Shown one piece after another: positions 28,909 to 64,000 of a DNA stretch of 64,000 nucleotides. The first letter of the stretch is position 1, and each line of letters starts with the position of its first letter. The position numbers and the translations under genes were made by a program. The notes beneath the pieces were generated by a model. It was given only the letters and a program-made list of their open reading frames with translations. It made no database searches and was not told the origin of the DNA. Source of the stretch: Trichodelitschia bisporula (Eukaryota; Ascomycota; Dothideomycetes; Phaeotrichales; Phaeotrichaceae); NCBI GenBank assembly GCA_010356995.1, contig ML996699.1, positions 341,697-405,696 on the forward strand, written 5' to 3'.

Positions 28909-29923
28909 ATGAAGCTTTCAGTTCCCGTCGCTTTCTTCCTGGCGACGCTAGTCGTCGCCGCTCCTTCGCAGAAGCGCGGCTTCGGTTCTGCACTCGCCGC
29001 CGCCAAGGGCCAGCAGGGCCAAAAGGCGAATGCTGGTGCCGGTGCTGGTGCCGGTGCCAACAAGGGCGGCAACAAGGGCGGCAACACCGGCACCACCCAG
29101 ACGGGCAACACCGGCAACTCCAACGCCAGCAACGGGACCAACACGGGCACCACCAACACGGGCACCACCAACACCGGCACCACCAACACCGGCAACTCCA
29201 ACGCCGGCAACTCAACCACCGGCACCACCAACACGGGCAACACCGGCGCCGCCAACCAACCCGCCATCCAAGACGGCGCCAACGACGTCAACGCAGCCGG
29301 GAGCGTCTCCGCCTCGGACGCCCTCCTCATCAACACCGCCATCGACGCCTGGCAGCGGGACACCGGCGTCGTAACCAACTTCCTAAACATGGGCGCCAGC
29401 TTCACCGACGACGCAACCTTCAAAAACCAAGCCCTCATCGCCCACTCCGCCGAAGTCGACGAACTGACGCACAAGAACGTGCTCGACCAGTTCACAGCCG
29501 GCAACGCCAACGTCCAAGCCGCCAACGCCACGCTGACCAGCGGCGCGTTCCAGCTCGTCGTCGATCGCCTTTTCGATATGAGCGTCAACGGGCGCGCGGA
29601 TATTGCGGGCATTGATCAGATTAACAAGGATCGTTGCGTCAACGTGTTGCCCAATATTGATACGTATTTGAGGGAGAGCGCGCAGTTGATTGGCGGCGGG
29701 CAGAAGGTTATTCAGAGTGTGAGGCCTGCGGCTTGTGGAAATATTGTGCCGGGCCAGAATGGCGCGCTGAAGGTTAATGAGATTCCGGCTGGGTATGTGA
29801 ATGGGAAGTTGCAGAATGGGAATTCGAATACGAACCCTAACATCCCCGCCACTGCGGCTGATGTAAGTTCTCCTCCGCCCTCCACTTTGAAGAGCAACCA
29901 GCTAACGCGCACAGGATGGTTGA
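28909..29923 (+). CDS. secreted protein with NTGTT repeat region
   Basis: Uncharacterised fungal secreted protein. Exon 28909-29862, intron 29863-29914 (GTAAGT..GCTAAC..CAG), then a tiny exon of two codons plus stop to 29923; 320 aa. Signal peptide MKLSVPVAFFLATLVVAAPS followed by a Lys-Arg (QKRGF), a likely Kex2 site. Residues about 45-125 are a low-complexity Asn-Gly-Thr repeat (GTTNTGTTNTG). The C-terminal about 190 residues form a conserved-looking helical domain (LINTAIDAWQRDTGVVTNFL, then EVDELTHKN, RCVNVLPNIDTYLRES, RPAACGN) with two cysteines. I recall similar domains in many ascomycete secreted proteins without assigned function. Cell-wall or effector role is guesswork. Confidence 0.78.
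29095..29245 (+). repeat. coding minisatellite (NTG/TT)
   Basis: Tandem copies of a roughly 15-bp unit, ACCACCAACACCGGC and variants, encoding Asn-Thr-Gly-Thr-Thr repeats in the secreted protein; likely length-variable between strains. Confidence 0.75.
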
Positions 29924-52604: not shown

Positions 52605-55004
52605 CTACGCCTCAATCTCCAACGGCAAAACCTCACCCAAGAACTCCCCCCCCTCCCCCCTAAGCAGGGCATCAATATCCACAACCCCACTCGTCAAATA
52701 CCTCTCACTAACCCCCACATTAACCTTTTGCCTCAACATCCCCTTCAACTCCACCCTCCACGCCGCCACCTCCCTCGGATCAACCATCTGATCCTCGCGT
52801 TCCTTCCTGCGCCGATCATTTCCCCTCCCCCTCTTCCCCCCCTTAACCTCCTCCAAACTATCAAGATCGATCCCCAGATCCTCCGCCGCTTCTTTCATAA
52901 CCAAATCCTCGCTATGCTTCTTCTCCTTCGCGCTCACCACATCCGCAATCTTCTTCGCCAGGTCAGCGCGCGCCTTGAGCTTGGCGACTACCCGCCGATC
53001 AACGTCGACGTTGCGCATCCCCCGGCCCCCGCGCTTGCGATGTACTTTCCCGACAAGGCGGCCGTACGCCTTCGCCTCCTCCGGCGCGCAAATAACCACA
53101 CTCGCCCCACCAGCCCCCGCCCGCGCCGTCCGCCCCGCACGGTGGATATAATCCTCCGCCGTGCGCGGGAGGTTATAATGCACCACCAGCTGCACATCCG
53201 CGATATCCAGTCCGCGGGCCGCCACATCCGTCGCCACCAATATCGAGTTCTCGGTAGAGGCAAAGCGCTCCAGAGCCCTGAGACGGGCTTTTTGGACCAT
53301 CTGCGAGTGGAGGGCGAGGGCCGGGAGGCCTAGGTTTTGGAGGAAGGGGGTCAGGCGCCGGACTGCGTGGACGGAGTTTGTGAAGATGAGGGTGCGGGTG
53401 CGGGGGTGCATTACCAGCAGGGCGTAGGTGTATAGGTCTTTTTCTTTGGCGATGCATTGCAACAGGCCCTCGCGGAGCTGCGCCGCGGTATGCGTTGTCG
53501 GGTCCACGTCGATGAATTTAGGCCCGCCGGCGCGGAAGTGCAGCTTCTTTAAAAGGAACTCGAGGGATGCTTCGTGGTTGGCTGGGTCGCCGGTGGACTT
53601 GCTCTTGCCCGCGAGTTTTTGGTGCAGGCCCTTGTGGAAAGTGGCGCTGAAGATAAGGGTCTGCCGGTCGGGACGCGGGGCGGGGGCGCTGGGGACAGCG
53701 TTATCTCCTGGATTCTCTGAGACGGTGATTTCGCCGTCCAGCGCGTTGATAATGGCGTCCAGCTCCTTGAAGTGGCCCTGGCTGAGGAGCCGGTCTGCTT
53801 CGTCGAGGACGAGGAAGTGCACTTGGCGCAGGCGCTTGACGGCGCCGGGGGCGCTGGACATGACTTCCCAGAGGCGGCCGGGAGTTGCGATTATGACGGA
53901 GCTGACGTCAAGGAGACGTTGCTGCTTTTGAATGGAGAGTCCGCCGGTGATGGTTGCTACCTTGGGACCGTCCGTGCCCTCGGCGAAGAGGGCGGTGAGA
54001 TGGGTTCCGATTTGGTGGGCTAGTTCGCGGGTGGGGGAGAGGATGAGGGCTAGAGGGGGGGTCTTGCTGCTGTTGGTCATATTTTTGCTTAGATAGTGTT
54101 CCAGGATGGGGATGCCGAAGGCGAGGGTTTTGCCTGAGCCCGTTGATGCCTTGCCGATGACGTCGCTGCCTGCGATTATTTCTGGGACGGCGGCGGCTTG
54201 GATGGGGGTAGGGCGCTGGAACTTGAGCTTGGAGAGTGCTGCCATGGTTCCGATGGAAAGATCCAAGGGCTGCCACTCCGAGACATCGACGCCGTCCTCA
54301 TCTTCCTCCTCCTCTTCCAGGAGACCTGCGAACGGGACACTGGCGATGATCGTCTCAGGTGCCTTCTCCTTCTTCTCCTTCTTCTCCTTCTTCTCCTTCT
54401 TCTCCTTCTTCTTCTTCTGGGGTTCTTTGGCAGGCTCAGGAGCAGCCTTGCCCTTCTTCTTCAGGATTCCCTTGATGGAAGCAGGCTCCTCAACAGGAGA
54501 AGGAGCCGCAGGCGTGTTATCACTATCTTCAAATCCTTTCCACTCCTCCTCTGTCTCCTCAGCTGCAGAGGCAGTAGCTGTTGCGTTCGACTGTCCTTTG
54601 GATTTGGTCCCATGCTCCTCGTGATCTTGTCCATTGATATGCGATTCCGCACTGCCGTTTGTAGCTTTCCCAGTACCGTTGGATTCGGGTTCTGCAGTGT
54701 CCTCGACTTCGGGCCCAGTGTCCTCGTCCACCTCGCCCAAAAGCGCAGGCTCCTTCGTCTTAAACCACCCCATTCCACGCTCATCCCTCTCAAAGTCCAC
54801 GCCATCAATCTCTTCGAGCCCAAAGAAGCCCTCATAGTCGTCCAATTGATCGGGGATCTCAACTTCCTTCCATGGCAGCTCGTCGAGGCGGACGGCACGG
54901 GCTGGGCGGTTAGATTTCGTTGAGGATACGCCGTTGGATTTGGGGCGCTTATTAGGCTTCGCGCCGGAGGACGTCGCCTTGCGCTTCTGTTGTCCAGAAG
55001 CCAT
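52605..55004 (-). CDS. MAK5: DEAD-box RNA helicase Mak5 (DDX24-like)
   Basis: ATP-dependent RNA helicase for 60S ribosomal subunit assembly in the nucleolus. Single exon, 799 aa; ATG at 55004 chosen because upstream in-frame sequence is unlike protein. Motifs: PTPIQAAAVPEI (Q), ASTGSGKT near 290 (I), PTRELAHQ (Ia), TPGRLWE (Ib), VLDEADRLL near 400 (II), FSATFHKGL (III), FTNSVHAVRR (IV), ATDVAARGLDIADVQ (V), HRAGRTARAG near 625 (VI). The N-terminus has WKEVEIPDQLDDYEGFFGLEEI, a Mak5/DDX24 signature, and a Lys/Glu repeat KKEKKEKKEKK encoded by a 9-bp microsatellite. Motif II reads DEAD, as expected. Divergent from TRM7, 212 bp between starts. Confidence 0.92.
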   Translation of the reverse strand: MASGQQKRKATSSGAKPNKRPKSNGVSSTKSNRPARAVRLDELPWKEVEIPDQLDDYEGFFGLEEIDGVDFERDERGMGWFKTKEPALLGEVDEDTGPEVEDTAEPESNGTGKATNGSAESHINGQDHEEHGTKSKGQSNATATASAAEETEEEWKGFEDSDNTPAAPSPVEEPASIKGILKKKGKAAPEPAKEPQKKKKEKKEKKEKKEKKEKAPETIIASVPFAGLLEEEEEDEDGVDVSEWQPLDLSIGTMAALSKLKFQRPTPIQAAAVPEIIAGSDVIGKASTGSGKTLAFGIPILEHYLSKNMTNSSKTPPLALILSPTRELAHQIGTHLTALFAEGTDGPKVATITGGLSIQKQQRLLDVSSVIIATPGRLWEVMSSAPGAVKRLRQVHFLVLDEADRLLSQGHFKELDAIINALDGEITVSENPGDNAVPSAPAPRPDRQTLIFSATFHKGLHQKLAGKSKSTGDPANHEASLEFLLKKLHFRAGGPKFIDVDPTTHTAAQLREGLLQCIAKEKDLYTYALLVMHPRTRTLIFTNSVHAVRRLTPFLQNLGLPALALHSQMVQKARLRALERFASTENSILVATDVAARGLDIADVQLVVHYNLPRTAEDYIHRAGRTARAGAGGASVVICAPEEAKAYGRLVGKVHRKRGGRGMRNVDVDRRVVAKLKARADLAKKIADVVSAKEKKHSEDLVMKEAAEDLGIDLDSLEEVKGGKRGRGNDRRRKEREDQMVDPREVAAWRVELKGMLRQKVNVGVSERYLTSGVVDIDALLRGEGGEFLGEVLPLEIEA
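54360..54420 (-). repeat. TTCTCCTTC microsatellite in MAK5
   Basis: About six copies of a 9-bp unit (TTCTCCTTC on + strand) encoding the KKE repeats; probably length-polymorphic. Confidence 0.8.
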
Positions 55005-55216
55005 GTTTGCGGTAGTGGTATGTCGGTTGTAGTGAAGTGAGAGTTGAATCGAAGTGTCGCGAACGACTATCCAGAAATCTTTTGCGCACGGACCCATCCA
55101 AAGTTGTAAGCGCGGAGAAGCTGCGGGCCGTGACTCTGTCAGAAAGGAACATCAACCCCACTAGCCGACCATCAACCAAACCTCACAGCAACAAACCGTG
55201 CCCAAAATCGTTCGAA
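55005..55216. promoter_or_regulatory. bidirectional spacer MAK5 / TRM7
   Basis: 212 bp carrying both promoters of two RNA-biology genes. No textbook element recognised. Confidence 0.45.
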
Positions 55217-56287
55217 ATGGGCAAGTCTTCCAAAGACAAGCGCGATGCCTACTACCGCCTAGCCAAAGAACAAGGCTGGCGCGCCCGCAGCGCCTTCAAA
55301 CTCCTCCAACTCGACGAAGAATTCAACCTCTTCGAAGGCGTCACCCGCGTCGTCGATCTCTGTGCCGCGCCGGGAAGCTGGAGTCAAGTCCTCTCGCGCA
55401 TCCTCATCAAGGGCGAATCCTTCGGCCGGTCAGCATGGGAAGATCGCTTTGCTAGAGACAGAATGGCCGCTTTCGGCCTCCCGTCCCCCCCGGAAGAACC
55501 GGCTGAGACCCCGCAATTGAAGCCCAGGAAGGACGTCAAAATCGTCTCCATCGACCTGCAACCCATGAGCCCACTAGAAGGCATAACAACCCTCAAAGCC
55601 GACATCACGCATCCCTCCACCATCCCCCTCCTCCTCAAAGCCCTAGACGAGGACTACGACCCCTCCTCCCCCTCCGCCGCCCAGCCCGTCGACCTCGTCA
55701 TCTCCGATGGCGCCCCGGACGTCACCGGCCTGCACGATTTGGATATCTACGTCCAGAGCCAGCTCCTCTGGGCGGCGCTGAATCTCGCGCTCTGCGTCCT
55801 CAAGCCAGGCGGCAAATTCGTCGCGAAAATCTTCCGCGCGAACGAGGTTGATCTTTTGTACGCCCAGCTGCGGGTCATGTTTGCCCGCGTGCACGTCTCA
55901 AAGCCGCGCAGCAGTCGCGCAAGCAGCATCGAAGCCTTCGTCGTATGCGAGGGCTTCCAACCACCCCCCGGCTTCAAAGCCAGCCTCGAGAACCCCCTCG
56001 GCCCAAAGTCTGTCCCCGCAAAGCTCGAGCCCCAGGCCCCGTTGAGGACGGTGCGTGAGGACGGCGTCACGGTCCTCGATCTCGGCGATGAAGAGGACGG
56101 CCGCTGGATTGCCCCTTTCCTGGCCTGCGGCGACCTTTCAGCCTTCGACTCGGACGCTACGTATCAACTGCCTAAGGACAGGGTGACACTCGACCCTGTG
56201 CAGCCCCCGACGGCGCCGCCGTATCGAAGGGCTTTGGAGATGCGGAAGGCGGCTGGGGGGGCGTATGGGAAGACGAAGGGCGTGTAG
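55217..56287 (+). CDS. TRM7: tRNA 2'-O-ribose methyltransferase Trm7 (FTSJ1-like)
   Basis: Methylates ribose at tRNA positions 32 and 34 using SAM, with partners Trm732 and Trm734. Single exon, 356 aa, ATG at 55217 (MGKSSKDKRDAYYRLAKEQG). SAM-binding motif VVDLCAAPGSWSQVLS near 48-62. The catalytic K-D-K-E tetrad is visible: Lys28 in RSAFKLLQ, Asp near 165 in VISDGAPD, Lys near 204 in KPGGKFVAKIF and Glu near 240 in SSIEAFVVC. GWRARSAFKL and APDVTGLHDLD are typical of Trm7 rather than Mrm2 or Spb1 (which is much longer). A 30-residue charged insertion after the SAM motif (RSAWEDRFARDRMAAF) is a fungal feature I cannot explain. Confidence 0.93.
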   Translation: MGKSSKDKRDAYYRLAKEQGWRARSAFKLLQLDEEFNLFEGVTRVVDLCAAPGSWSQVLSRILIKGESFGRSAWEDRFARDRMAAFGLPSPPEEPAETPQLKPRKDVKIVSIDLQPMSPLEGITTLKADITHPSTIPLLLKALDEDYDPSSPSAAQPVDLVISDGAPDVTGLHDLDIYVQSQLLWAALNLALCVLKPGGKFVAKIFRANEVDLLYAQLRVMFARVHVSKPRSSRASSIEAFVVCEGFQPPPGFKASLENPLGPKSVPAKLEPQAPLRTVREDGVTVLDLGDEEDGRWIAPFLACGDLSAFDSDATYQLPKDRVTLDPVQPPTAPPYRRALEMRKAAGGAYGKTKGV

Positions 56288-57663
56288 GGAGTTCGCGCTG
56301 GGAGATGAGGTCGCTAAACGACTAATCCTTGCGCGCGTGCCTGCTGCTGCTGTTCGTATTGGAATGGTGCCTACGGGATGACGGACTGAGGCCCTGGGCA
56401 ATGGCTCCCCGGCACTGAGGCGCTGAGGGCTTGGCTGGGCATGCGGCGAGGGGTTTGGATGCGATCTCCAGTCCCGCATTGAGGATGATGGGACTTTGAG
56501 ATCTTTATCGGCTTGAGCCAAGCGGCGGGATCATCAGAGAAGCTGCACTGTTCCCAGTTTATCCCGGCCGATGAACGCTACCCATCGACTCAAGGCACGA
56601 CCATCTCCGCACCACGACCAAGGAAACGCACGACTGTGCCCCCACTTCCCCATGCCTCACTTCCAATCCGCGTGGTTCGACGGATTGGATTTGGGAAGGG
56701 ACAAGCCGTTAAATCTGAAGCTCATCCCTCGAGACGGGTAGACACCAACAGATTTTCAACGTTTCGACGCCTCGATGGACAAGCTTCAGATCTAACGGCT
56801 TATCCCTTCTCAAACGTTCAATCCATCTCTTCCACCAGGCTTCTGTCTCCCAGTCCTCATGAAGATCGATAAATACCTCTTTGTAACGATAGGTAGAAGG
56901 CTGTGGTGCCGCAATAAAGGATCCAGGACTTTGAGATGTCCATGACGATCTTTGAAGGCTGCACCATCGCCTTCCCCCTCTTGTTACAACGATGCTTTTG
57001 TTGGTCTTCAGGAGGACTCCCAGGAGACAGAGCCTGGTGGAAGAGAACGCACATGGCCCAAGGTTCGGAAGCACTAGGCCTTGTTACTCGCCAGCTCAAG
57101 TGACGAACATCCGCGCTGTATTCAAGGGCATGATGAATAACAATATATCGATCGAATTCCCCAGACGAGCTCAGGTCCCGACTGAGAACACTTACCGGAA
57201 GCCTGCAAAAGTTCCCTTAATTCTTACACGTCGGGAGCACTAGCCGCGCACATTCTTTTCGATGCCTTTCGGGGACGAAAATATATCTGTATTGGATTCT
57301 TCTGACTACATGGGCACGAGGCGGCGTTGTTTGGCACGGCTTGAGTCCCCCGGCTTATGATGCGGCCATTTTCCTGCTCTCGCCCCGGGTGTGTAGGATA
57401 GAATCAACTCCCTGCCATCTCACACGTTATTCACCAGCTGCTTCGTGACGTGCAATATTTTCTGCTTCCCCCCTTATACGTTCAGCATCCGTTGTTGTAA
57501 CCATTCTTCGGTAGCCGCGATGTCATCCTGCATTCATTCCGCTCCTAGCGGAATTCCCCCGTCGCGCTAGTGCAACACCTAGCAACGCGCCTTATCAGTC
57601 TCCGCATCAACGCCACGGCCTTGCCCCGCAGCCTGATCGCCGCGGCAGAGCTTACCCCTCACC
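56288..57663. other. intergenic with an inverted repeat, no convincing gene
   Basis: Besides the inverted repeat at 56672-56835, minus-strand frames at 56709-57099 have protein-like patches (WETEAWWKRWIERLRRD) that overlap the repeat; I cannot build a gene. The remainder shows nothing. Confidence 0.45.
56672..56835. repeat. imperfect inverted repeat (hairpin)
   Basis: Arms about 56672-56736 and 56765-56835 around a 28-nt loop. The core arm GGGACAAGCCGTTAAATCTG pairs with its partner with transitions only (4 mismatches in 30 bp by eye); outer parts are weaker and contain small indels. Similar in style but not in sequence to the repeat at 37.3 kb. Confidence 0.65.
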
Positions 57664-57670
57664 TATAAAG
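57664..57670 (+). promoter_or_regulatory. TATA box of the amidase gene
   Basis: TATAAAG 73 bp before the ATG at 57743, followed by a CT-rich leader, a typical fungal core promoter. Confidence 0.5.
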
Positions 57671-57742
57671 AAACTCCCATTCTCTCCCCCACTCACCCAT
57701 CTCCCCTCAGCTCCCCCTTCCGTCTTACACCCATTGCGCAAA

Positions 57743-59553
57743 ATGTCAACCTACCTCGAGCGCGGCGCAGCCCGGCGCGCCGAAATCGACGCCGCGATCC
57801 CAGAAGAATGGCGCCTCCCCTCCATCCCCTCCCCCTCAGAGCAGCGTGACATCACGGGGCCCTACATCTGGCAATTCCTCACCTCGCGAGAAAAGGAAAT
57901 CACCGAGACAGAAGCCGAAGCCATCGTCCAAAACACAACTTCCGGCACCTGGACCGCCGTCGAAGTAACCCGCGCCTTCTGCCACCGCGCCGCCATCGCG
58001 CACCAACTAGTAACCCTCCCCCCCACTTCACCCTCAGTATCCTCGCTAACACCCGCAGCTAAACTGCCTCCACGCGCCGCTCTTCACCGCCGCGCTGGCC
58101 TCGGCTGCTGAACTGGATGCGCACCTCGCAGCAACCGGCTCCCCCGTCGGGCCCCTCCACGGTCTACCTATAAGCCTCAAAGACCAATTCCATGTCGCAG
58201 GCACGGATACGAGCATGGGGTACGTCGGCTGGATCGGGACCTTCGAGGGCAACGCCGACGATCCGCGGACCGGGGTGTTCGAATCGGAGCTTACGAGCGC
58301 GCTGCGCGGCCTCGGCGCTGTTATCGTAGCTAAGACTTCCGTACCGCCTAGCTTGATGGCGGGCGAGACGCGGAACTACATTGTGGGGAGCACGTTGAGC
58401 GCTAGGAATAGGTTGTTGAGCGCGGGGGGGAGCAGCGGGGGCGAGGGGGCCTTGCTAGGCGCCCGCGGGAGTGCGCTCGGGTGGGGCACGGATATAGGTG
58501 GGAGTGTGCGGATTCCCGCCGCGTTTAACGGCTTGTATGGGCTCAAGCCCAGCACGGGCCGGATGCCGTATGAGGGCGCGGCGAATAGCATGGATGGGCA
58601 GAATAGTGTGCTGTCCGTAGTCGGGCCGTTGGGGAACAGCGTGTCCGCGTTGAGACTCGGGTTCAAGGCCGTGCTTAGCACGCGGCCGTGGGAGCGCGAC
58701 CCGCTGTGTCTCGAGATCCCGTGGAGAGAGGACAAGGCGGTTCTTCCTTCGAAACTGCGGTTCGGGGTTTGGAAAGACGATGGCGTGGCGCGGGTCACGC
58801 CGCCTGTGCAGCGCGCGTTGGATGTTACGGTCATGAAGCTGCAAGCCGCGGGACACGAGGTGCGCTTTCCCCCCCCTTCCCACGCCGACCGCAGCTGATG
58901 AAACCTAGGTCGTGCGCTGGGCGCCGGCGCCGGAGTTTCAGGAGGAGATCACGGCGCTGCTGGCGCAGGTGTGGGCCTTCGACGGCGGGGCCGACATCCA
59001 CCGCGCGCTGGGCCTGAGCGGCGAACCGCCCATCCCGCCCATCGAAGCTGCGTTCGGGACTTCAGCGAGGCCGGCTATGGATGCGGGGCAGGTGGCGGCT
59101 GTGAATGTGCGGATCCGGAAGGTGAGGAAGGGGTACCTGTATTGGTGGCAGAGCAGGGGTGTGGATGCGATTATTGCACCCGTGGCGCCGGTGCCAGCTG
59201 CGCGGGAAGGGATGTATGCGGACTATGGGTATACGATGTGGGTTAATTTGCTGGATTATGCGAGTGTGGTAGTGCCGGTTTCGAAGGTGGATAAGGGGTT
59301 TGATGGGGTGGTGGAGGGGTATGAGCCGCGGAATGAGCAGGATAGGATTTGTTGGGAGAGTTGTGAGTTGTCCTGCTTTCTTTCTGGGTTGAAACTGTGG
59401 GTTTTGGGAGCGGATGACTGACTTCGACTAGATGATCCCGAGATCTTCGATGGCGCCCCGATCGCTCTGCAACTGGTAGGCCAGAGACTGCAGGAGGAGA
59501 AGATGCTGGCAATTGCGGACGTCGTGGTTGAGGTACTCAAGGGCTATGAGTAG
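57743..59553 (+). CDS. acetamidase-type amidase (amidase signature family)
   Basis: Hydrolyses carboxamides to acid and ammonia; similar fungal enzymes (AmdS group) let the cell use amides as nitrogen source. Exons 57743-58009, 58059-58859, 58909-59362 and 59432-59553; introns 49, 49, 49-type and 69 nt; 547 aa. N-terminus like AmdS (PYIWQFLTSREKEITETEAE). Ser-cisSer-Lys triad: Lys in LPISLKDQFHV near 130, cis-Ser region GGSSGGEGALLGARGS near 225, nucleophile Ser in GTDIGGSVRIPAAFNGLYG near 248. The C-terminal block (DGAPIALQLVGQRLQEEKML) is intact after the last splice. A TATA box lies 73 bp upstream. No regulator gene is adjacent. Confidence 0.9.
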
Positions 59554-59742: not shown

Positions 59743-62700
59743 TCACAGGAGGGGAACGAGGTCCAGATCCGGAATCTTGCGAATCCACGTCGGCAGAAGC
59801 TTCTTCGCATCGCGGGACGACTTGTCGGTGACGTCCAAGTCAAACTCCTCAAACGCCGCCTCCTGAACCCGGGCCGCCTGCTTGAGCAATTCCGCAACCG
59901 TCTGCTCACGGAACATTTCTCCAGGCCCACAGTGGTTCTTGAAGAAGTTGTACCAAAGATCAGGACCTACACATATTAGTTCAATCCTTCCGTGAGACAT
60001 TCCTCCTTACCTGCATGAGTCTGCAAGCCAGCCGCAAGCGTGACAAGCTCGCGCTCAGACCACGGCTCCATTGGCTGCGGCGTATGCGGAATCTGCGAGC
60101 CCGACCTCCGCGCATGGAACATCTCCAGCCGCTCAAACGGAAAGCCGTTCGCATCGATAGACAACGCGTTCGGGTCCGGCAGCTTCGGCGTCCGCAACTT
60201 CGCCTTGCGCCTAAAGTCCGGCTCGAACTCGCGCCGCTGCGCATATAACAGCATAAGACGCGCCTTTAGGACCTCGAACTTTTCCTTTTTCTCCATAAGA
60301 CGGCGCTCCTCGGACAGACGCAGACCTAGGTCCTGCGTCTCCGCGGCTTGCTGCTCGATGCAGATTTTCATACCGCACCATTTCACGATGAGGGCACGCA
60401 GATGTGGAAGTGAGCCGGCCTTGATGTACTTGGAGAGGCCGAGCCGGCGCAACGGGCGTAGGGGCCAGTTAGCAAGGACGTTGAGGCAGGAGCTCACGGC
60501 TTCGGCGAGGCGGATGAACGAGGTGAGCACGGGGATGCTAGCGGGTCGAGTGGCCACCTCGACGAAGCTGAGGCAGGCACGCTCGAAAAGGCCGACAAGA
60601 GCGGGCCACACCAGGGCGTGTGCTTGGTCGATGTAGTTTTGGTGCTCGGCTGGATCGGAAATCTTTACCTGACCGAGCTCCTGGGAGAGCATGAGGAGGA
60701 CGTCGGCCGCCTCGGCTAGGGTTTCCACAACGTTTTCGACAGTACGAGGGCTCCGGAAATGATCCTTCGTGTTTTGGATCTGCTGGCGAACAACGCGAAC
60801 GATGGGGTCGAGCGGAGGCTTGCCGAAGACCTGATTGACGTGGTCTTTGTATTTTCTGTTGTCATTTCTCAAGAGGCGAAGGAGGGAACCGGCCTCGTGA
60901 AGCAATGCATCTATAGCCTTAACATGAGGGTCGATATCCTCTTCAGAGTCGGATGGTTCGATGCCCTCAACCGGATCGTCCTCGCTGGACTCGTCTGGAG
61001 TCATGAAAAGGTCGTCGTCGTCTTCCTGGCCTTGCACACGTTCCTTCTGATGGCCAGCCCCATTAGTTCCGTTCGCTGCCTGCTGCTCATTAGTCTGGGT
61101 TTCCTCCTCGTCGGATTCATCGTCTTCCTCGTCGGACTGATCATCTTCTTCATCGACCTCATCATCTTTGTAAGCTTCATCATCCTTGCCGGCCTCATGA
61201 TCTTCCCTGGCCTCATGATCTTCGTCGGTCTGATCTTCTGCGTCGACAAGATCAAGTTCCTCGATTTGGGCACCTTCGCCGGCTTGATCATCAGCGACTT
61301 GATCATCGGTGACTTGATCATCTTCGACGACTTGATCATCCTCGACGGCTTGATCATCTTCGGCAACCTGATTAACTTCGTCGGCCTGATCAGTTAGGTC
61401 GGCTGGAACTTCTTCGCCGGCTTGGTCATCTTCGTCGATCTTATCTTCATCTTCCGACGACTCATCGCTTGAAATGACAATCGGACGACGACGCCGTTCA
61501 GCCTCTGGAATAGCAGGGGGGTCAACCTCCATAGACTGTCCAGGAAGCGGAGTCTCCGCTGGGGGTGTCCACTGAACTTCCTTGGCTGGATGAGCACTAG
61601 GAGCAGGTTGATCAAGGATACGACCGGAGGAAGTCGACTTGCGGTTGGCCTTACTGACAGGAGACTTTGATGCTGATCTTCCGATACGGGGGCGCTTGGG
61701 GGTTGAAGCGTCGGGTTTATCAAGGACACCACCGGGGCGAAACGACTTGCGGGCAGCCATTGTGGTTATGGCGTCCCTTGGTGAGCTCCTCGTACGGGCG
61801 CGCTTGCTGGTCTGAGCCTTGAGCTCGTCCTCGTGTACGAAAATCGAAGACTCCTTCGGGTGTGTCCTCTCAAAGTCCAGGGCGGGAGGAGTAGGAGAAT
61901 CAGGTTGATCAAGGGGACCACCAGACGGAGCTGACTTGCGGCTGGCCATAGATGCCAAGACTTTGCGACCCCTGGGGATGGGAGCCTCAACCTCGTCCTC
62001 GTCAACTGAACTCGAACTCTCCTTCGGGGATGTCCTCTCAACATCACGTTCCCGTATCTTAGCGTCATGGTCCTCGTTCCAATCGTCATCTTCCGGAGAA
62101 GTAGGAGAGTCGGGTAGATCAAGGATACTACCGGACGGAGCTGACTTGCGGTAGGCCGTACTAGCTAAGACACGGCTGCGCTTGGGAATCGGAGCCTCGA
62201 GCTTGTCTTCGCGTACGGAAATCGGAGTCTCCTCCATGGGTGTCCTTTCAACACCCTGGGCCGGAGGGGCAGGAGGATCAGGTTGATCAAGGACACCACC
62301 GGACAGAGCTGACTTGCGGGCAGCCCCCAATCTTTTGAAGTACTCTCTACCTGATATTCCGGGAGGGCGGGTGCGCTTGCTGGGCGGAGCCTCAGATTTA
62401 TCCAGGACCTCACCGGGTCGAACCGACTCGTGGTACGCATTCATGGCTTCGTTGTACCTGAAGTCGTGGTTGTGCGTGGAATGCGGAGTCTCCTGCCGGG
62501 GTGTCCTCTCATCATCATGACCCGGACACTCATCACCATGTTCTGGACAAGGAGGAGAATCGGGTAGATCAAGGACACCACCGGACGTAGCTGACTTGCG
62601 TATAGCCCTCATTTTCAGAGAACAGTCTGGATTTGATGTTGCGGGAAAGCGGATACCCTTGCTGGGCGGAGCCTCTAACCTTTTCCCAGGCCGTCGATGT

Positions 62701-64000
62701 GATAGCACGTTCTCCTGAGGTTCTCCGGGCTGTTAGCATAAACTGCTTGGCTTCATATAGGCTAGGGGCTTACCTGCTCCCTGCGGCGTACCCGATATTG
62801 TCGCATCGTCATCGACGAAACCGTAGCCTTGGGCGGGCCCTAAAATATCGCGCAGGGACGGGATCAGATATCGCGGATGCGGACACCACTCGTCTCCTAG
62901 GCTAGCTGCTACCTCCTCCGCATCCGGCGCGGCGCCTTCCCAGCCGGCCTCAAGCCACGTGATTGCCAGGTTAACGTCGCCGACCTGGAATGCCTCAAGG
63001 AGTGGCCGCCCGCGGCCCCCGTCTCGCAACAAGCCGCTCTTCCTCCGGTCTAGAAAGGCGCGCGCAAGGGAGCCAAGGACTTCCGACTCGCTGCGGTGAT
63101 CCAATAGGGAGAGGCGGGCAAGGCGGGCGAGGCGCTTAAGCAATGTGCTCGACGGTTTCCCCTCCGGCCGCTGAACTAGGGCGGTTGGGTCGAGGAGGAG
63201 GCTGCTAAGTCTCTTGTAGCCGGTGTCGCGTATCGTCTTCATGTCTCGCCTCCACCGGGCGTCTGTGATGCGCTCGTCACTGCGGTGATTCTTTAGTTCC
63301 CCCACGGTCGCGTCCTCCAGGTGTGTTCTCTCAACATCCGGGATCGGAGGCGTAGGAGGAGCAGGATGCTCAGGAATACTATAGGACGGAGCATCATGAT
63401 TGAAGATACCGCCGGGCGGGGCAGGATGATCTAGGACACCACTGGACGGAGCAGGGTAATTATGAACACCACCAGACGGAACAGGATAATTAAAGACCCC
63501 ACCGGACGGGGCAGGATAGTCAGGAACACCACCGGCCGGAACAGGATGATCACGAACACCACCGGACGGAGCTGACTCGCGGTGGGCCTTACTGGCTAGG
63601 AGACGGTAGCGCTCTGGGACTGGAGCTTCGAGCACGTCTTCGTGTACGGAAATCGGTGTCTCCTCCGGGTGTCTCCTATCAACATCCTGGGCCGGGGGAG
63701 TAGGAGAAGCAGGTTGATCAAGGATACTACTGGACGGAGCAGACTTGCGGGCAGCCTTTGAGGCAAAGCCAATCCTTGGTTTGCTGATACGGGCGCGTTT
63801 GGGGTTCGGAGCCTCGAGCTCGCCTTCGTATCCGGAAACCGCCTCTGGGGCTGTCGACTCAACATGTTGGGCCGAAGAGGTGGTAGAATCAGGTTGATCG
63901 AGGCCTTGGACACCACAGAACAGAGCTGACTGGCGGGCTGACTTATTGGCCACAAACTTCGATGCTGAGCCTGGAACACTGGGGCGCTTGCCGTTCGAAG
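59743..64000 (-). CDS. large nuclear SANT-like protein with repeated histone H3 K27-tail mimic (5' end off window)
   Basis: Family not recognised. Exons >64000-62774, 62722-60011 and 59966-59743; introns 62723-62773 (51 nt, weak GAG 3' site) and 59967-60010 (44 nt); at least 1,386 aa, N-terminus missing. The N-terminal two thirds are tandem units of about 60 residues with consensus EAPxPKRxR (NLS-like), then LASKAARKSAPSGGVLDQPD, then SPTPPAQDVERTHPEETPIS and VHEDELEAP. The middle of each unit matches fungal histone H3 residues 20-35. A non-repeat helical segment of about 170 residues interrupts the array. Then come an acidic Asp/Gln tract (EDDQAVEDDQVVEDDQV), a helical region (IDALLHEAGSLLRLLRNDNR onward), a coiled coil and a C-terminal SANT/Myb-like domain (EPWSERELVTLAAGLQTHAG, then YNFFKNHCGPGE). 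Chromatin function is inferred. Confidence 0.78.
61230..61420 (-). repeat. acidic DDQ minisatellite in the SANT-like gene
   Basis: Short units built on TTGATCATC (with CTTCGACGA) on the + strand encode EDDQVVEDDQV-type acidic repeats. Confidence 0.75.
61601..63953 (-). repeat. degenerate tandem array with H3-tail-like cores
   Basis: Nine recognisable cores, at about 63899-63953, 63711-63770, 63543-63602, 62551-62615, 62275-62331, 62105-62172, 61893-61970, 61706-61765 and 61601-61656, plus a weaker tenth near 62395-62450. DNA around each shares a block like GGACGGAGCTGACTTGCGG on the + strand, so the units arose by duplication. Confidence 0.85.
63370..63602 (-). repeat. 30-bp nested minisatellite within one repeat unit
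   Basis: Seven or so copies of a 30-bp unit encoding PSGGVxxYPA-like decapeptides, apparently amplified from the SAPSGGVLDQP part of the core. Register matches codon frame, so the array is expressed. Confidence 0.82.

Follow-up and report, generated by a model that had tools for sequence, protein, structure and literature searches.

In a 64,000-nucleotide stretch of the genome of the ascomycete Trichodelitschia bisporula (contig ML996699.1, positions 341,697 to 405,696; hereafter, the window), we found that a gene on the minus strand at the right end encodes, in the middle of its protein, ten diverged copies of a unit of about 60 residues whose cores together spell residues 20–35 of histone H3 without T32. 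We tentatively propose, on the pattern of conservation among the copies, that these units form a multivalent array of phosphorylation sites founded on an H3-like segment.

Repeat units and their likeness to histone H3

The ten units, each with an R/H-x-S core, have their cores on the minus strand at window positions 61617–63953 (Table 1). A unit reads approximately EAPxPKRxR, zero to nine residues, LASKAARKSAPSGGVLDQPDSPTPP, DVERTxPxE and HEDELEAP, and units follow each other at 36–70 residues within two clusters, one at residues ~280–480 (units 1–3 with an array of 10-residue half-units) and the other at residues ~700–1060 (seven more units). Between them lie the half-unit array, which is a second level of repeat growth in which the APSGGV part was multiplied minus the RKS core, and a non-repeat stretch of ~190 residues. 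The units were first listed by a regular expression on the core, a choice that might bias the list towards R and S. Anchors blind to the core were also used: the LDxP type matched 13 times, at the ten units and at three places in the half-unit array, while the EAP type matched eight times, each time followed by R-x-S. In the full units located by such anchors, the core is R-x-S in 9/10 and H-x-S in 1/10.

A previous interpretation of this DNA from its letters alone (the sequence-only reading) had described, on this strand and in this part of the window, at least nine tandem R-K/E/Q-S cores with lysine in seven of nine. All nine were re-found together with a worn tenth, HES at residue 780, which makes the lysine count 7/10. 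The two copies that it had singled out are also present: the one reading ASKAARKSAPS (unit 2, residues 353–363, window 63732–63764), identical to H3 21–31 at 11 of 11 positions, and the one with Glu at the K27 place (unit 3). The description as tandem applies only loosely, the units falling into two clusters separated as above.

For comparison with H3, the ten units were aligned on the core arginine, and columns −6 to +8 were considered. The commonest residue per column gives LASKAARKSAPSGGV, which equals H3 20–35 minus T32 at 15/15 columns with no ties, so that the consensus of the sequence-only reading stands, with uneven support (units out of ten: L4 A6 S5 K4 A9 A4 R9 K7 S10 A7 P4 S7 G8 G6 V6); the weakest columns are L20, K23, A25 and P30, at four units each, and S22 at five. 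We then searched 177,635 PDB sequences with a profile of the whole-unit alignment (10 rows, with unit limits set by us). At an expectation value (E) of at most 10 there were 109 matches, the best 60 of which are H3 proteins, H3-tail peptides and a Cse4 entry; the top match, at E 0.002, is the Cse4 entry bearing an H3-type tail, and yeast-type H3 is matched at E 0.0048. Against H3 the units score 20.4 bits in their true order, compared with at most 7.5 bits in 300 column shuffles and −0.4 bits when reversed. Dropping any one unit leaves 18.5–21.7 bits, dropping units 2 and 3 together leaves 16.5 bits (E 0.08), and a profile of just six units (1, 4, 4b, 5, 8 and 9) gives 13.1 bits (E 0.86). Since scores persist without units 2 and 3, the best copies hold much, not all, of the H3 signal. 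Used whole, the protein has an H3-type tail (Cse4 entry) as its best PDB match, at an E of only 0.62.

The genome sequence searched comprises 25,654,952 bases in 30 contigs. With the 37-residue tail of the fungus's own H3 as query in six frames, the H3 gene was matched at E 1.1e-17 and the unit 7 stretch at E 0.25, the only match up to E 10 other than the H3 gene (two candidates scored). A 10-residue pattern occurs in H3 and the array gene only. A short degenerate ARKSAP pattern alone is not rare: it is found at 30 places on both strands, compared with 11 for its reversed control, partly owing to codon sets that also admit other residues.

Chance likeness to H3 is ruled out by the profile search, the shuffles and the genome search with the fungus's own tail. 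Broad capture of an H3 exon was likewise rejected, as the likeness is bounded at H3 20 and 35 and no further H3 DNA was found in the genome: in 20 tests, shuffled versions of the unit flanks aligned to H3 as well as the flanks themselves (P 0.17–0.99 upstream, 0.28–0.99 downstream), and a genome search with the H3 exon at the DNA level returned no additional copy. Capture of only ~45 bases of H3 DNA may have taken place. Units and H3 gene have identical codons at 48 of 96 shared residues, with 34.2 ± 4.4 expected from the codon use of the protein, but little can be learned from this comparison, since all units derive from one another. With chance out and descent from a long H3 piece unsupported, there remains a founding segment identical or similar to H3 20–35 that was later free to change at several positions. 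This segment may have arisen through selection for likeness or through capture of a very short part of an H3 gene.

Constraint among the copies and possible functions

Constraint was estimated by pairwise codon comparison of the ten units, unit 1 being shifted by two residues after V35. The H3-like block (−6 to +8) has a ratio of nonsynonymous to synonymous change (dN/dS) of 1.20, with 1.16 at −6 to −3, 0.75 at −2 to +3 (A24–A29) and 1.74 at +4 to +8 (P30–V35). The non-H3 LDQPD after the block is at 0.40, the next three columns are at 0.79, and the upstream flank is at 1.02 and saturated. S28 is Ser in all ten units despite silent changes (nonsynonymous proportion, pN, 0.00; synonymous proportion, pS, 0.60). 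A24 follows with pN 0.10 and pS 0.73, Leu+9 and Pro+12 have pN 0.10 each with pS 0.37 and 0.47, and Asp+10 is invariant. At K27, pN is 0.19 and pS 0, with Q, E and E in three of the ten units; A25 (pN 0.66) is Ala in four and H, I, Y, Y, S and N in the others, and P30 likewise changes freely. The best-kept pattern among the copies is A-x-R-x-S followed by [VI]-L-D-x-P.

These values bear on the proposal of the sequence-only reading that the units mimic the K27 region of H3. It had named neutral drift of the core as its refutation, and the block as a whole does drift, A24, R26 and S28 being the exceptions; it had looked for a lysine kept more than its surroundings, and among the copies the lysine, at the same 7/10 as A29 and S31, is kept less than S28, A24, R26, G33 and LDxP. 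What stands of the proposal is a likeness to H3 beyond chance and the likely presence of the writers in the genome (see below). The strongest constraint among the copies leans to the serine, not the lysine.

We rank the phospho-site array first because Ser, Arg and A24 are kept best and Lys less. Known partners of H3 S28 are an Aurora-type kinase and 14-3-3. According to this proposal, a single-copy protein, probably of chromatin, would have gained ten diverged copies of one unit from a founding copy whose 15-residue segment was equal or nearly equal to H3 20–35 minus T32, and the copies would act as disordered, multivalent, basic phospho-sites that have kinase and phospho-reader in common with H3 S28. 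Activity of the S28 kinase would then gather the protein on its partners or release it from them, and the lysine and Polycomb repressive complex 2 (PRC2) would be secondary or ancestral. R/H-x-S is present in all ten units and Pro at +2, as in the 14-3-3 ligand pattern, in four. 14-3-3 binds H3 phosphorylated at S28, where Pro at +2 plays a role (PMC3538786); the segment read there is A-R-K-pS-A-P, whereas here its counterpart belongs to a non-histone array.

Several points weigh against this proposal. Pro at +2, which binding by 14-3-3 would want, is kept in those four units only. K27, R26, A29 and G33 are without silent changes, so that constraint there is inseparable from youth of the codons, and Lys at 7/10 exceeds the freest columns (2–4/10). 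The sample is small, its ten copies come from one gene and share ancestry, so that they are not independent; dN/dS among repeats blends duplication, conversion and selection, and in single columns very few changes were counted.

A rival reading is a relic: a very short H3-like piece would have come into the unit, through chance or through capture of H3 DNA, spread as the unit multiplied, and now be decaying with no function of its own. We regard this as rather unlikely, although a plurality that is H3-like at 15/15 columns, where single copies reach 5–13, is consistent with it, as are a block dN/dS near 1 and the codon identities with the H3 gene (counted over cells that are mutual copies). 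In Dothideomycetes, a hAT transposon has been described that captured and amplified H3 (PMC6710886). The flanks without H3 likeness and the lack of a further genomic copy of the H3 exon by DNA speak against a relic, and the retention of S28, A24 and LDxP is not predicted by plain decay.

A mimic of the K27 region would need its writers, which are probably encoded in the genome. Among 15 SET matches in the genome, the five best were typed by Pfam as AWS-SET with a weak WW (SET2 type), AWS-SET, N-SET (SET1 type), CXC-SET and Pre-SET. In the PDB, the CXC+SET protein, of E(z) type, matched PRC2 chains (E 9e-52 to 5kkl_B, which we take to be from a Chaetomium complex), the Pre-SET protein matched DIM-5 (5e-48) and the N-SET protein matched H3K4-specific SET1 (3e-64). 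One VEFS-box protein was found (4e-7, above the Pfam cut-off), whose best PDB match is only 0.0017. BAH proteins, possible readers of H3 trimethylated at K27 (H3K27me3), gave two matches, and one H3 gene with a tail was found, histone-domain matches numbering eight in total. Histones, the CXC-SET protein and short GT-AG introns are in keeping with a filamentous fungus. From the E(z)-type and VEFS-box proteins, H3K27 methylation in this fungus is likely. Of the PRC2 genes to which the sequence-only reading had pointed, the search covered those of the E(z)-type and VEFS-box proteins.

With these proteins encoded, the units may be methylated by, or bind, the E(z) protein or EED, and the array would activate, recruit or titrate PRC2 in the manner of JARID2, PALI1 or EZHIP, only with many copies; we hold this reading to be rather unlikely, on a par with the relic. 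The core pair is R-K in seven of ten units (R-Q, R-E or H-E in the other three), and R26 is kept in nine. The Ala in the ARKS motif recognized by readers corresponds to A25, and its presence in 4/10 units only counts against the idea of an ARKS reader. Replacement of K by Q, E and E in three units, the drift of the block next to a non-H3 part at 0.40 and the growth of the half-unit array without the RKS core also disfavour mimicry of PRC2 ligands. Mutation of R26 to Ala in an H3K27M peptide made PRC2 binding 22-fold weaker (PMC4853476), and PRC2 partners are known to use mimicry by non-histone sequences (PMC8319299, PMC12713659). PRC2 mimicry may still be viable, given the seven R-K sites and the importance of R26 at the EZH2 site. 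In an extended and improbable version, Lys units would be PRC2 substrates that hold EED once methylated and boost spreading, Glu and Gln units would be blind spacers, and S28-type phosphorylation would be a mitotic off-switch for the array; if true, a non-histone protein would carry a methyl-phospho switch many times over.

A last function considered is nuclear import or chaperoning, the H3-like segment copying a basic stretch held by importins or H3 chaperones, with PKRxR and KAARK as a bipartite nuclear localization signal. In six of eight anchored units a KR-type basic cluster follows the EAP-type anchor and precedes the core, at approximately the spacing known as the rule for bipartite signals. 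One or two signals would suffice, the core Lys is not best kept, and the VLDxPD half would have no role; we consider this reading very improbable.

Histone mimics in other systems

The H3 mimic of Swi6 (HP1) of fission yeast is single, of K9 type and in a chromodomain protein, and its sequence was reportedly given by Canzio in 2013. Like the present protein, which is probably of chromatin and has ten H3-like segments, Swi6 is a chromatin protein of a fungus and carries its H3 mimic internally (PMC7192584). H3K27-like lysines in non-histone chains are known from the PRC2 accessory subunits PALI1 (K1241) and JARID2 (K116), where PRC2 methylates them and EED binds them (PMC8319299). In the array the lysine would act in a comparable way if the units are PRC2 ligands; PALI1 and JARID2 have few sites, sharing a methyl-lysine followed by an aromatic residue, whereas the array has up to ten, with a likeness over 15 residues and Ser after Lys. 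EZHIP/CATACOMB, an endogenous protein of placental mammals, evolves fast and contains tandem repeats as well as a peptide resembling H3K27M (PMC12713659). There the repeats are, in the text used, a feature separate from the peptide, whereas here the H3-like peptide itself is repeated; the residue at the K27 place is K, E or Q in 10/10 units and never Met, unlike an EZHIP-type peptide. ARK-type substrates are known for G9a (PMC6172828). The ARKS motif of SARS-CoV-2 ORF8 was read as an H3 mimic and is disputed (PMC10833455); this four-residue likeness in a viral protein serves as a caution.

Neither these papers nor the matches listed in the literature on histone and H3 mimics, largely open access, describe a protein in which the H3 tail is repeated as an array. 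In animal PRC2 regulators, where non-histone mimics of the H3K27 region are known, they occur at one or a few sites. A fungal multi-copy array with a 15-residue match, and with ten variants of one peptide per chain, would let nature's own variation show which H3-tail residues partners need.

Gene model and neighbouring features

The window holds most of the gene, whose start lies 820 bases past its edge. The spliced model (1660 residues, three exons; window 64820, outside, to 59743; contig 406516 to 401442) joins open frames of 708 and 918 residues through a 51-base intron and adds the last exon after a 44-base intron. It was read from 10 kilobases spanning the window edge, with introns predicted from signals and frame only; intron 1 was picked from 11 frame-keeping GT-AG pairs by its donor and branch-like CTAAC.

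Table 1. Features of the array gene, in window coordinates
Feature	Position	Strand	Basis or remark
Unit 1 core VANKSARQSALFCGV	63909..63953	-	8/15 to H3
Unit 2 core FASKAARKSAPSSSI	63723..63767	-	11/15 to H3
Unit 3 core LASKAHRESAPSGGV	63555..63599	-	13/15 to H3, Glu at K27
30-base-pair degenerate tandem array, half-units [AV]P[SA]GGVxxYP without RKS core	63358..63572	-	repeat listing, anchors
Unit 4 core LKMRAIRKSATSGGV	62574..62618	-	10/15 to H3
Unit 4b core EAMNAYHESVRPGEV, worn	62406..62450	-	5/15 to H3
Unit 5 core KRLGAARKSALSGGV	62292..62336	-	10/15 to H3
Unit 6 core LASTAYRKSAPSGSI	62124..62168	-	11/15 to H3
Unit 7 core LASMASRKSAPSGGP	61914..61958	-	12/15 to H3
Unit 8 core ITTMAARKSFRPGGV	61725..61769	-	8/15 to H3
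Unit 9 core PVSKANRKSTSSGRI	61617..61661	-	8/15 to H3
Exon 1	62774..64000, extends to 64820 beyond window	-	708-residue open frame, spliced model
Intron 1, 51 nucleotides, GTAAGC...CTAAC...GGAG	62723..62773	-	donor and branch-like CTAAC, predicted
Exon 2	60011..62722	-	spliced model
Intron 2, 44 nucleotides, GTAAGG...CTAATATGTGTAG	59967..60010	-	predicted, signals and frame
Exon 3 and stop	59743..59966	-	spliced model
Helix-turn-helix-like segment	residues 177-220, ~64161-64292 (outside window)	-	below all Pfam cut-offs
Non-repeat stretch between unit clusters	62775..63332, residues 497-682	-	without Pfam match
PIVISSDESSEDED, look-alike of a SUMO-interacting motif, then acidic/CK2-type serines	61443..61484	-	by eye
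Acidic tract after RRRR, short D/E/Q-rich repeats	61020..61496	-	limits by eye
C-terminal region	59743..60932, residues 1280-1660	-	by eye helical, end SANT-like

A whole-genome search with the protein returned itself alone, so that it is single copy with no paralogue. Homologues were not found in a protein collection in which the ~8000 candidates sharing the most words with the query were scored each time (words of the first 500 residues, short proteins only, and the C-terminal part against longer proteins); the collection may lack relatives, and their absence is uninformative on the spread of the gene. The helix-turn-helix-like segment has Sigma70_r4_2 as its best Pfam model (20.0 bits, cut-off 25.7), two Myb models at 13 bits, and in the PDB a Myb chain as best match (E 0.031), with response regulators at 0.032–0.036 and the nearest chains spanning 0.03–0.05; no Myb/SANT-like DNA-binding domain exceeds the Pfam cut-off in this N-terminal segment. 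The C-terminal region has no family match in Pfam and no PDB support. A Pfam scan of the whole protein gave no histone domain, and the protein is not among the histone matches of the genome. The helix-turn-helix-like segment, the basic stretches and the acidic tract suggest that the protein is probably nuclear.

Residues ~1092–1250 contain, in this order, RRRR, PIVISSDESSEDED and the acidic tract; PIVISSDESSEDED resembles, by eye, a SUMO-interacting motif with an acidic tail that could be phosphorylated. Repeats of 15–21 bases at 61105–61438 encode the D/E/Q-rich acidic tract, and the plus strand opposite it has 225 open codons (60720–61397) with LIIF/FLVG repeats, probably a shadow frame.

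Elsewhere in the window, two stop-to-stop frames diverge on opposite strands: by eye, the one at 52605–55151 (minus) resembles a Mak5-type DEAD-box helicase and the one at 55016–56287 (plus) an FtsJ/Trm7-like methyltransferase. An amidase-signature gene, recognized by eye and split by short introns, lies at 57515–59550 on the plus strand, and tandem repeats of 12–15 bases of the CAACACCGGCAACAC type are found at 29031–29244.

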